37,069 nucleotides of DNA from an uncultured Spirochaetales bacterium (GTDB lineage: Bacteria; Spirochaetota; Spirochaetia; Sphaerochaetales; Sphaerochaetaceae), in assembly GCA_949283305.1 (NCBI GenBank), contig CASDRU010000011.1, positions 1 to 37,069 on the forward strand. The letters run 5' to 3'. A program made the position numbers and the translations under genes. The first letter of the stretch is position 1. Every line of letters begins with the position of its first letter. Below the pieces are notes generated by a model. The model was not told the origin of the DNA and searched no databases. It worked only from the letters and a program-made list of their open reading frames with translations. Below are positions 5,380 to 13,367 of the stretch, piece after piece.

Positions 5380-7457
5380 AAGAGTATGTCTGTATATGTA
5401 GGAATGGGCCAGTAGTCCTTTCCAACTATCATCTCAAGTTCATCGCTTGAGTCCCTGCATTTCTGCATCAGAGGAAGAATGATGTCCTTTGCATAGAATG
5501 CTGCGCTCCTTGCATCATCAGGCATTGCAAGAGCCGCATTCTTGAGAGCTTCGCAATCCAGAGAGAGCCTGTTCACAAGTTCCGTAACATCACGGCATAT
5601 CTTCTCTTCCCCGCTTGCCTTTATTGAAAGGGCTTTCTTGTTTATGAGGCCCTTTGCAATATCATCAGAGTATCTGACAGAAGAAGGGATTATCTGCTTT
5701 GTAAGCATTTCAAGCAGCATCGATGCCTCGATATGCACCTGCTTGCGGTACTCATCAAGAAGAATCTCCTCACGTGAGATTATCTCCTCCCTTGTATATA
5801 CTTTCTGCCTTTTAAACAGCTCCACATTCTTCTCATCATGATAATGCACAAGTGCTTCCGGTGTCGTACGGTAATTTGTCAGCCCCCTCTTTTCAGCCTC
5901 TTCTTCCCACTCGCGGCTGTATCCGTTGCCGTTGAAGATTATTCTCTTGTGTTTCTTGAGCTCTCTTTTTATGAGAGTGTGAAGGGCCTGTTTGAAATCT
6001 CCTGCATTCTCAAGCTCAGATGCGAAGACTGAGAATGTGTCTGCAACTGCAGTGTTTATTATCGTATTGGTACATCCGATGTTGAACGATGAGCCAAGCA
6101 TCCTGAATTCGAACTTGTTTCCTGTAAAAGCAAACGGGCTCGTCCTGTTGCGGTCAGAATTGTCGCGCGGAAGCTGAGGAAGGGATGCAGCTCCTATATC
6201 CAGCTTCACTCCGTTCTTGATCTCAGCCCTTCTTTCTTCGATGATTGCGTTGATCACCTCTTCCAGCTCACTTCCGACAAATACGGACACGATTGCAGGG
6301 GGTGCCTCGTTTCCTCCGAGCCTGAAATCGTTGCCAAGAGAGGCAACAGAAAGTCGCAGCAGATCCTGATAATCATCAACTGCCTTTATCACAGCTGTGA
6401 GAACAAGGAGGAAAAGCGCATTCTCCTGCGGTGTTATTCCCGGATCCAGAAGATTTTCTCCATCGCTTGTCTCAAGTGACCAGTTGTTGTGCTTTCCGCT
6501 CCCGTTTACCCCGCTGAAAGGCTTTTCGTGCAAAAGGCATGCAAAGCCATGACGGTCTGCAACCTTCTTTATTATCTCCATCGTCAGCTGATTGCTGTCA
6601 GTTGCGATATTCACCTTATCGAAAATCGGAGCCATCTCATGCTGGCAGGGAGCAACCTCGTTATGCTCTGTCTTTGCCTTTATCCCAAGCTTCCAGAGCT
6701 CCCTGTCGAAATCCTCCATGAAAGCCTTGACTCTCGGCCTGATAGAACCGAAATAATGGTCTTCCTTCTCCTGGCCCTTTGGAGCGGCAGCCCCGATTAA
6801 TGTACGTCCTGTGAGAATCAGATCCGGCCTTTTTTTATAATCTTCCTTGTCAATTAAAAAATATTCCTGCTCTGCTCCGACTGTCACATTCACGCGACGC
6901 GGATATTTTTCAAAAAGAGCAAGGATTCTCTTTGCCTGAGTGTTAATTGCATCCATGCTCCTCAACAGCGGTGTCTTCTTGTCAAGAATCTGACCTGTAT
7001 ATGAACAGAATGCTGTTGGAATGCAGAGCGTGTTGTCCTTGATGAATGCGAAGCTTGTAGGATCCCATGCAGTGTAACCTCGGGCCTCAAAGGTAGCTCT
7101 CAGTCCGCCGGAAGGAAAACTTGAAGCATCAGGCTCTCCCTTGACAAGCTCCTTTCCTGAAAAATCCATTATGATGCTTCCGTCTCTCTGTGCAGTGATG
7201 AAGCTGTCGTGCTTTTCTGCGGTGATTCCTGTCATGGGCTGGAACCAGTGCGTGAAATGAGTAGCGCCTTTCTTCAAGGCCCACTCCTTCATGGCAGATG
7301 CGACAACATCGGCAATCTTCTCATCAAGTCTCTTGCCATCGTTTATTGTCTTCAAAAGCTCTTTATACACTTCCCTTGGAAGCATGGAGCGCATCACAGC
7401 ATCGTTGAAAACCATCGATGCGAAAAGATCCGGAACATTCTTTTTCTCTTCAGTCAT
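5370..7457 (-). CDS. glnN: glutamine synthetase type III
   Basis: This 695-residue enzyme is of GSIII length (about 700), not the 440-470 of type I. It makes glutamine from glutamate, ammonia and ATP. Recognisable GSIII stretches are FEARGYTAWD (residues 123-132), VTVGAEQEYFLID with the metal-binding glutamates, EVAPCQHEMAPIF, GVNGSGKHNNWSL and the RLGGNEAPPAI segment. No classic ribosome site precedes the ATG at 7457; the region just upstream is short, only 31 nt after the MATE stop, so it may be read from the MATE promoter. No PII or glutamate synthase gene is adjacent. Confidence 0.92.
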   Translation of the reverse strand: MTEEKKNVPDLFASMVFNDAVMRSMLPREVYKELLKTINDGKRLDEKIADVVASAMKEWALKKGATHFTHWFQPMTGITAEKHDSFITAQRDGSIIMDFSGKELVKGEPDASSFPSGGLRATFEARGYTAWDPTSFAFIKDNTLCIPTAFCSYTGQILDKKTPLLRSMDAINTQAKRILALFEKYPRRVNVTVGAEQEYFLIDKEDYKKRPDLILTGRTLIGAAAPKGQEKEDHYFGSIRPRVKAFMEDFDRELWKLGIKAKTEHNEVAPCQHEMAPIFDKVNIATDSNQLTMEIIKKVADRHGFACLLHEKPFSGVNGSGKHNNWSLETSDGENLLDPGITPQENALFLLVLTAVIKAVDDYQDLLRLSVASLGNDFRLGGNEAPPAIVSVFVGSELEEVINAIIEERRAEIKNGVKLDIGAASLPQLPRDNSDRNRTSPFAFTGNKFEFRMLGSSFNIGCTNTIINTAVADTFSVFASELENAGDFKQALHTLIKRELKKHKRIIFNGNGYSREWEEEAEKRGLTNYRTTPEALVHYHDEKNVELFKRQKVYTREEIISREEILLDEYRKQVHIEASMLLEMLTKQIIPSSVRYSDDIAKGLINKKALSIKASGEEKICRDVTELVNRLSLDCEALKNAALAMPDDARSAAFYAKDIILPLMQKCRDSSDELEMIVGKDYWPIPTYTDILFYV

Positions 7458-12272: not shown

Positions 12273-12301
12273 AAAAAATCCCGGGTATACTGGACCCGGG
12301 A
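12273..12301 (-). terminator. terminator of the hsp20 operon
   Basis: The minus strand forms a perfect 8-bp GC-rich stem (TCCCGGGT with ACCCGGGA, 7-nt loop) followed directly by TTTTTT. It lies 7 nt beyond the second hsp20 stop. Confidence 0.9.
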
Positions 12302-12307
12302 AAAGCG

Positions 12308-12703
12308 TCAGTTAATCTTGACTTCGATTTTCTTTGCTTCCGGCTTCTTGATCTTCTTGATGGAAAGGATCAGAAGTCCGTTCTTGTGCAGTGCCTCGAT
12401 AGCATTCTCATCTGCATCGCTTGGAAGAGAGAAGCTCCTTGAGAAAGAAGGATGGAAAATCTCCTTCTTGAGGTATTCATTCTTATCCTCTTCCTCCTCT
12501 GCAGAAATTGTCAGGACCTTGTCCTTGCTTGAGACATTGATTTTCTCTGGATCATAGCCCGCAACTTCAGCCTCCAGCACATATGCATCATCATTTTCAT
12601 ATATATCCACACGCGGGAAACGTGATTCAGAAAGCGGTGCAAAAAAATCATCAAAAATATGATCGAAATCAAAAAGACTTGGAATATTGTAGTAGTATCT
12701 CAT
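12308..12703 (-). CDS. Hsp20/alpha-crystallin small heat-shock protein (second of pair)
   Basis: This 131-residue small heat-shock chaperone holds unfolding proteins in an ATP-independent way. The alpha-crystallin domain spans about residues 30-120, with VDIYENDDAYVLEAEVAGYDPEKI, the strand block SFSRSFSLPSDAD and a C-terminal NGLLILSIKKIKKPEAKKIEV. I start it at 12703: an earlier ATG at 12709 abuts AAGGAGG with no spacing, whereas the second ATG gives 6 nt. The ribosome site overlaps the stop codon of the upstream hsp20, so translation is coupled. Confidence 0.88.
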   Translation of the reverse strand: MRYYYNIPSLFDFDHIFDDFFAPLSESRFPRVDIYENDDAYVLEAEVAGYDPEKINVSSKDKVLTISAEEEEDKNEYLKKEIFHPSFSRSFSLPSDADENAIEALHKNGLLILSIKKIKKPEAKKIEVKIN

Positions 12704-12714
12704 TTTCATCCTCC

Positions 12715-13137
12715 TTAGTTCTCACTTTTAACTTCAATTTTCTTGACTTCAGGCTCGCTCTTTACAATCTTAGGAATGACTAGAGTCAGGATTCCATGCT
12801 TGAATGCGGCTTCTATCTTCTCCTCATCTGCATCCTCAGGAAGAGTGAACGTTCTTGAGAAGCTGGTAGTGCTTCTTTCTCTCAGAAGATAGTTTCTCCC
12901 ATCTTTCTTCTCTTTATCTTCCTTTGAATCTGCACTGATTGTGATTGAGTGCTTTTCAACGCTTACAGAAACATCGCTCTTGTCAAAGCCTGCAAGCTCT
13001 GCCTTGATAAGATATTCCTTATCCTTGTCCATGATGTCCACACTTGGCATCTTCATATCAGATGAGAAGAATCTGTTCATCATCCTGTCAAACTCCTTCA
13101 TCTCTCTGTTTCTGTTGTATCTTGTAATTGCTGCCAT
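12715..13137 (-). CDS. Hsp20/alpha-crystallin small heat-shock protein (first of pair)
   Basis: This 140-residue small heat-shock protein has an alpha-crystallin domain at about residues 30-130 (VDIMDKDKEYLIKAELAGFDKSDV, SFSRTFTLPEDADEEKIEAAFKHGILTLVIPK). It is clearly related to the next gene, so the pair is likely an old tandem duplication that could form hetero-oligomers. AAGGAGG lies 7 nt before the ATG. A sigma-54-type promoter sits about 40 bp upstream, instead of a CIRCE element or sigma-32 box, neither of which I can see. Confidence 0.88.
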   Translation of the reverse strand: MAAITRYNRNREMKEFDRMMNRFFSSDMKMPSVDIMDKDKEYLIKAELAGFDKSDVSVSVEKHSITISADSKEDKEKKDGRNYLLRERSTTSFSRTFTLPEDADEEKIEAAFKHGILTLVIPKIVKSEPEVKKIEVKSEN

Positions 13138-13173: not shown

Positions 13174-13192
13174 TTTGCAAGGGGCGTGCCAA
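13174..13192 (-). promoter_or_regulatory. sigma-54 (RpoN) promoter of the hsp20 operon
   Basis: The minus strand reads TTGGCACG-CCCC-TTGCA, matching the -24/-12 consensus TGGCACG-N4-TTGCW at every defined position. It predicts a start near 13165 and a leader of about 28 nt that contains AAGGAGG. Confidence 0.8.
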
Positions 13193-13257
13193 CTTTTATA
13201 ATTCATTGTATTACAAGCAATTATCATTCTTAATATTTTTACTTATTCATCTGTTTT

Positions 13258-13308
13258 TGTCAAAATGACACAGATGTATCATTTTTTCTCTCTTTTTGTG
13301 TCATTTTG
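13258..13308. promoter_or_regulatory. inverted repeat upstream of the sigma-54 promoter (putative enhancer)
   Basis: CAAAATGACACA (13261-13272) and its exact complement TGTGTCATTTTG (13297-13308) are separated by 24 nt. The left arm also sits in a smaller dyad, TGTCA-AAA-TGACA (13258-13270). The repeat lies about 95-145 bp upstream of the predicted hsp20 start, the usual place for sites of AAA+ sigma-54 activators. It also lies 70-120 bp before the divergent helicase gene. Confidence 0.65.
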
Positions 13309-13367
13309 CTTTTTAATTAAAACAAAACAGGAAAATATGTGTCTTGTTTATTCTCCCTCATTTTCTA

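Follow-up and report, generated by a model that had tools for sequence, protein, structure and literature searches.

Comparative sequence evidence supports the control by sigma-54 of an operon of two small heat-shock protein (hsp20) genes in an uncultured Spirochaetales bacterium, and it is very probable that the promoter of this operon is worked, via sites located further upstream, by P0004, an activator of the Rrp2 type. In most families of the class that were examined, hsp20 and a gene encoding an RpoS-like sigma factor apparently share this one sigma-54 switch. Sigma-54 control of hsp20 had been claimed in a first-pass annotation of the DNA, and it gains support from the presence of rpoN, from the retention in relatives of the promoter's GG/GC doublets and of the upstream site, and from an activator gene elsewhere in the genome.

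The window, by which we mean the whole stretch of 37,069 nucleotides that was analysed, contains two hsp20 genes that are separated by 5 bp and belong to the same operon (13137..12308, minus strand). The first gene (12715..13137, minus) encodes a protein of 140 aa with an HSP20 domain and the second (12308..12709, minus) a protein of 133 aa; both proteins score over the HSP20 domain cut-off (Pfam PF00011, E 4.4e-24 and 5.5e-20, respectively) and belong to the HSP20/alpha-crystallin family. A predicted intrinsic terminator, consisting of the hairpin TCCCGGGTCCAGTATACCCGGGA and a subsequent T run (12279..12301, minus), is located just past the last hsp20 stop codon, although chance alone would be expected to yield 0.8 terminators of this kind here. 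A full-consensus -24/-12 element had been proposed to precede the hsp20 pair, and an exact match, TTGGCACGCCCCTTGCA, is indeed present at 13192-13176 (minus), where it is conserved at hsp20. Nothing else in the 37-kb window matches TGGCACGN4TTGCW without mismatches, the runners-up having 2, and, as tested for promoters of this type, the GG and GC doublets of TTGGCACGCCCCTTGCA lie 10 bp apart in TTGGCAC/TG-N4-TTGCA/T. Across the whole genome, TTGGCAYGN4TTGCW has five exact matches (at hsp20, on contig C6, on contig C10 and two before psp genes), and when 1 mismatch is allowed there are 19 sites compared to 1 for the reversed control pattern. The look-up of rpoN that the first-pass annotation had recommended showed the gene to be present, as is at least one AAA+ activator gene. 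No HrcA gene was found in the 96%-complete genome and no CIRCE operator in the 37-kb window, the latter as the annotation had stated.

We considered whether hsp20 could be transcribed mainly with a sigma factor of the sigma-70 family (housekeeping or RpoS-like), with sigma-54 having a minor or condition-specific role as at E. coli ibpB, given that in E. coli the use of sigma-32 has been reported for ibpAB and that of sigma-54 for ibpB (PMC4370416). Sigma-70-like matches do occur near hsp20, e.g. TTGACA-17-AAAAAT at 13263-13235; however, the six matches found are not clearly above chance (3.0 ± 1.8 expected), the TTGACA of this example is part of the predicted activator site itself, and the -24/-12 element is conserved across families. 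We therefore regard a mainly sigma-70-type control as unlikely, and favour transcription from the sigma-54 promoter.

Upstream of this promoter, an exact 12-bp inverted repeat with a 24-nt gap had been described, and its arms, CAAAATGACACA (13261-13272) and TGTGTCATTTTG (13297-13308), are exact reverse complements located 24 nt apart. The proposal that the repeat is an activator site agrees with its sequence but needs to be modified in one respect: the repeat is not one palindrome but parts of two 17-bp sites, TGTGTCA-N3-TGACACA, each arm corresponding to one half and the spacer of such a site. The notion of a single large inverted repeat serving as one operator was thus replaced by that of two 17-bp sites ~40 bp apart. 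The proximal predicted activator site, TGTGTCATTTTGACAAA (13256..13272, minus), has 1 mismatch to TGTGTCA-N3-TGACACA and starts 80 bp upstream of the -24 element; in relatives this distance recurs as 80-82 bp. The distal predicted site (13297..13313, minus), which starts 41 bp beyond the proximal one and thus 121 bp from the -24 element, is a decayed copy in which one half is lost and the other (AAAAGCAAAATGACACA) intact, and is unchanged in the nearest relative. A possible third, degenerate half-site with 1 mismatch, AAAATGATACA (13275..13291, minus), is located between the two, but is weak and may be due to chance. At ≤1 mismatch, AAAATGACACA occurs four times in the window compared to 0.9 expected, and three of the four occurrences are upstream of hsp20. 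A different palindrome in this region, TGRYACA-N2-TGTRTCA (13266-13281), was rejected: it is the sole exact match in the genome, matches with mismatches are no commoner than those of the control, and no copy was seen at the sigma gene. Between the window and the nearest relative, the 59-bp site block shows a single change as against 13 in the adjacent 60-bp spacer, and comparison with related species more widely, as the first-pass annotation had advised, showed that the GG/GC dinucleotides and the site are kept both in this nearest relative and across ~20 families. The arrangement of promoter and sites at hsp20 is not due to chance.

When the genome was searched for the repeat, as had also been advised, the combination of promoter and site was found at exactly one other place. 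The palindrome scan revealed three clustered copies (C6:33341-33437) directly before the exact -24/-12 promoter at C6:33515, and the gene downstream of this promoter, P0003, encodes an RpoS-like protein of the sigma-70 family. Since P0003 scores 248 and is thus below the cut-off of 379 for the NCBIfam RpoS equivalog TIGR02394, we refer to it as RpoS-like only.

The same arrangement was followed across the class in one to three representatives per family, comprising 21 hsp20 and 24 sigma gene upstream regions from non-Borrelia genomes, many of the genomes used being draft assemblies. The -24/-12 promoter was detected for all 21 hsp20 representatives and for 20 of the 24 sigma gene representatives (~0.05 in shuffles in both cases), the other four sigma genes having a low -24/-12 score. 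Sites within 3 mismatches, counted with a consensus that is itself partly derived from these upstream regions, were detected in 19/21 hsp20 and 21/24 sigma gene representatives (~0.3 in shuffles), leaving 2/21 and 3/24, respectively, with no site within 3 mismatches. In the hsp20 upstream regions of relatives TGTGTCA-N3-TGACACA is present in one to three copies. The spacing between sites is narrowly distributed: at the sigma gene 85 pairs are spaced by 40 bp compared to 3 by 41 bp, and at hsp20 a spacing of 39-44 bp dominates in relatives. Likewise, the distances to the -24 element cluster at 80, 122 and 164 bp for hsp20 and at 94, 134 and 174 bp for the sigma gene. Looping by several activator dimers bound to the same face of the DNA would require a geometry of this kind.

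Besides this spacing, the less circular tests are an unbiased scan of the class and an enumeration of palindromes. In the scan, in which 395 genomes of the class were searched for the site together with the promoter, alongside a control pattern, the strictness of the pattern meant that most genomes with looser sites were not matched; 12 matches in 9 genomes were obtained and 0 with the control. The downstream gene was hsp20 in eight matches and the sigma gene in four, the window genome contributed two matches only (hsp20 and the sigma gene), and the named records included several uncultured Spirochaetales and a Treponema bryantii MAG. When palindromes were enumerated with no prior motif, TGTCA-N3-TGACA ranked first at hsp20. 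At the sigma gene the motif was weak, with GTCA-N3-TGAC narrowly heading the 4-bp list and the 5-bp list being uninformative.

An orphan sigma-54 activator gene had been suggested as something to look for; an activator is indeed encoded elsewhere in the genome, but it is not an orphan, as it adjoins a kinase gene and is near the sigma gene. This activator, P0004 (G000:C6:29209-30564, where G000 is the window genome), has a REC-AAA+-Fis architecture (Pfam PF00072, PF00158 and PF02954) with GAFTGA in its sequence. The histidine kinase gene P0007 lies directly upstream of P0004, the two being located 3 kb before P0003, and in most families the genes for the activator and for the sigma factor are likewise linked. 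P0007 is a cytosolic, HK2-like kinase, in which no clear transmembrane segment is seen (hydropathy over 19 residues at most 1.54). Four Sigma54_activat proteins are present in the window genome, namely P0004, P0005, PspF and P0009. Of these, P0009 (contig C8) was rejected as the activator, an AAA+ domain but no Fis/HTH domain having been found in it; this protein (L004, 224-1366 minus) resembles sigma-54 activators and has GAFTDA instead of GAFTGA.

If the sigma-54 promoter is correctly recognised, its activator could instead be P0005 (contig C21), which is the second REC-AAA+-Fis activator of the genome, or PspF (contig C10). Both are present, and since PspF is a regulator of envelope stress genes elsewhere among bacteria, a link to hsp20 would be sensible. 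However, the psp promoters here bear a different palindrome, ATGGTAAAATTTACCAT, on which ground PspF was discarded as the hsp20 activator, and the TGTGTCA-N3-TGACACA sites also adjoin the P0004 locus. Furthermore, genomes G045 and G041 lack equivalents of P0005 and PspF, and in each of them the P0004 ortholog is the one true sigma-54 activator (their other matches are weak AAA+ proteins); yet the sites are kept, at the sigma gene in both genomes and additionally at hsp20 in G045. We consider P0005 or PspF a quite improbable activator of hsp20; since the sites persist where the P0004 ortholog is the sole activator, P0004 is pointed to by elimination, and its recognition helix, GRKTLHRK, is strongly conserved. 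That the repeat is a repressor site, or serves the divergent DEAD-box helicase gene (start ~13382), with no relation to sigma-54, is hardly credible despite its location between two divergent genes, since the distances of the sites to -24/-12 recur both before hsp20 and before the sigma gene, which is unlinked to it, 12/12 unbiased matches have hsp20 or the sigma gene downstream, and no exact -24/-12 element faces the helicase gene.

In the mechanism that we propose, sigma-54 RNA polymerase would transcribe the hsp20 operon from 13192-13176, and P0004, which may be switched through phosphorylation by P0007, would bind the upstream TGTGTCA-N3-TGACACA sites in their ~40-bp register (80 and 121 bp from the -24 element) and bring about open complexes through looping. 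It would also drive, via the same sites, the RpoS-like gene 3 kb from its own gene. Since activator and sites are common to hsp20 and the sigma gene, one signal, which may be protein-folding or a related stress, would raise the chaperones directly and the sigma regulon indirectly.

In a phylogenetic tree, P0004 and Borrelia Rrp2 form one clade (support 100/99) apart from other activators, and the two proteins share 51% identity, which identifies P0004 as the ortholog of Rrp2. The system of the window genome has in common with the HK2-Rrp2-RpoN-RpoS pathway of B. burgdorferi an orthologous REC-AAA+-Fis activator with an adjacent cytosolic kinase, HK2 of Borrelia being cytosolic with a signal reported as unknown (PMC12472547), and a -24/-12 promoter on a sigma factor gene ≤10 kb from the activator gene; it differs in its conserved upstream sites and in having hsp20 as a target. 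In the Borrelia genome used here (G053), assigned to B. turicatae on the basis of its plasmid, kinase, activator and rpoS are located within 10 kb, in an order unlike that of the window genome. The rpoS gene has kept a perfect -24/-12 element and no TGTGTCA-N3-TGACACA site was found upstream of it, while B. turicatae hsp20 has neither the -24/-12 promoter nor the site. A Borrelia rpoS devoid of sites agrees with published results, in which binding assays failed to detect Rrp2 at up to 238 bp from the rpoS promoter of B. burgdorferi, and Rrp2 activated rpoS without upstream DNA, i.e. in an enhancer-independent manner (PMC1976401). Activation of the sigma gene without an upstream site is thus a trait of Rrp2 that does not extend to the window genome, where the sites are present and conserved, and the simplest history would be that the sites were lost in the Borrelia line. 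Borrelia RpoS is too diverged to be placed in a tree (its very long branch, 3.7, precludes establishing orthology in this way), and the equivalence of the two sigma genes therefore rests on neighbourhood and promoter type.

The recognition helix of Borrelia Rrp2, GRKTLHNK, is one residue off the class consensus GRKTLHRK, and the same helix is found in genome G048, which has a perfect site. It is conceivable, if doubtful, that Borrelia Rrp2 keeps the ancestral DNA specificity and exerts its essential role via remaining or decayed sites; in that case its first role would have been to control small chaperones and an RpoS-like factor in response to protein stress, and it would have been turned into the host-switch regulator later. 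As candidates for such sites, 2-mismatch matches in Borrelia genomes were discarded, being about as common as those of the control pattern. One of them, TGTGCCATAATGATACA (L283, 1501-1517; B. turicatae chromosome 571691-571707), has 2 mismatches to the Rrp2-type site, is intergenic, is located 50 bp before a gene and is common to four Borrelia genomes; with a match rate near that of the control it is only a lead.

Further sigma-54 elements of the window genome resemble other systems. A PspF-like activator gene is located between two pspA-like genes (L003, G000:C10:173723-177205), both of which have TTGGCATGCTCTTTGCA and a palindrome of the ATGGTAAAATTTACCAT type, suggestive of a spirochaete phage-shock system under sigma-54. 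This PspF regulon is likewise a sigma-54 stress regulon with the same promoter type, but PspF has no receiver domain and the upstream palindrome is another one. The exact -24/-12 site on C10 precedes what look like non-coding transcripts. In L067 (G000:C10:150000-162000), two sigma-54-type promoters, TTGGCATGCTTGTTGCA (5880-5864) and CTGGCATGGGTTTTGCA (5707-5691), occur within 5607-5880 on the minus strand, each with a terminator-like hairpin within ~75 nt and no ORF; these units resemble two small RNAs in tandem that depend on sigma-54 and carry anti-Shine-Dalgarno stretches, and they have folds with z of -7.0 and -3.4 and no Rfam match. The palindromes TGTGAAGAAAATTCACA and GTGTGAATATTTTTCACAC, between the two promoters, are perhaps P0005 sites.

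A scan of the whole collection beyond the spirochaetes returned many matches in other phyla, including enteric and Vibrio genomes, for which NorR sites (GTCA-N3-TGAC) are a probable cause. NorR sites share the core spacing and core letters of TGTGTCA-N3-TGACACA; in contrast, their flanks and target genes differ, and no activator of the window genome reaches the NorR equivalog cut-off.

Both sigma-54 promoters on heat-shock genes and the Rrp2-RpoN-RpoS pathway in Borrelia are already known. A sigma-54 promoter has been reported for E. coli ibpB (PMC4370416) and for heat-shock COGs of Bacteroidota and Planctomycetota (PMC12316311), so that small heat-shock or chaperone genes under sigma-54 promoters are common to these systems and to the one described here. 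However, they belong to other phyla, the survey naming no Spirochaetia for this cluster (PMC12316311), whereas here a candidate activator, its putative site and a predicted sigma-factor co-target are identified. In the open-access literature, to which our search was confined (subscription papers being outside it), we found no description of an Rrp2 site, or of hsp20 as an Rrp2 target, in spirochaetes.

These results thus reveal a bacterial group in which small heat-shock genes are apparently controlled via sigma-54 and not via HrcA or sigma-32. Published work describes the activation of rpoS by Borrelia Rrp2 as independent of any specific DNA site, and treats both the signal of Rrp2 and its essential function as unknown (PMC1976401, PMC12472547). 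A candidate for the DNA site of the ancestor of Rrp2, seemingly lost in Borrelia, can now be named, and the class-wide site, the chaperone co-target and the fixed geometry together provide a hypothesis for what Rrp2 may originally have recognised and which stress it may have answered.
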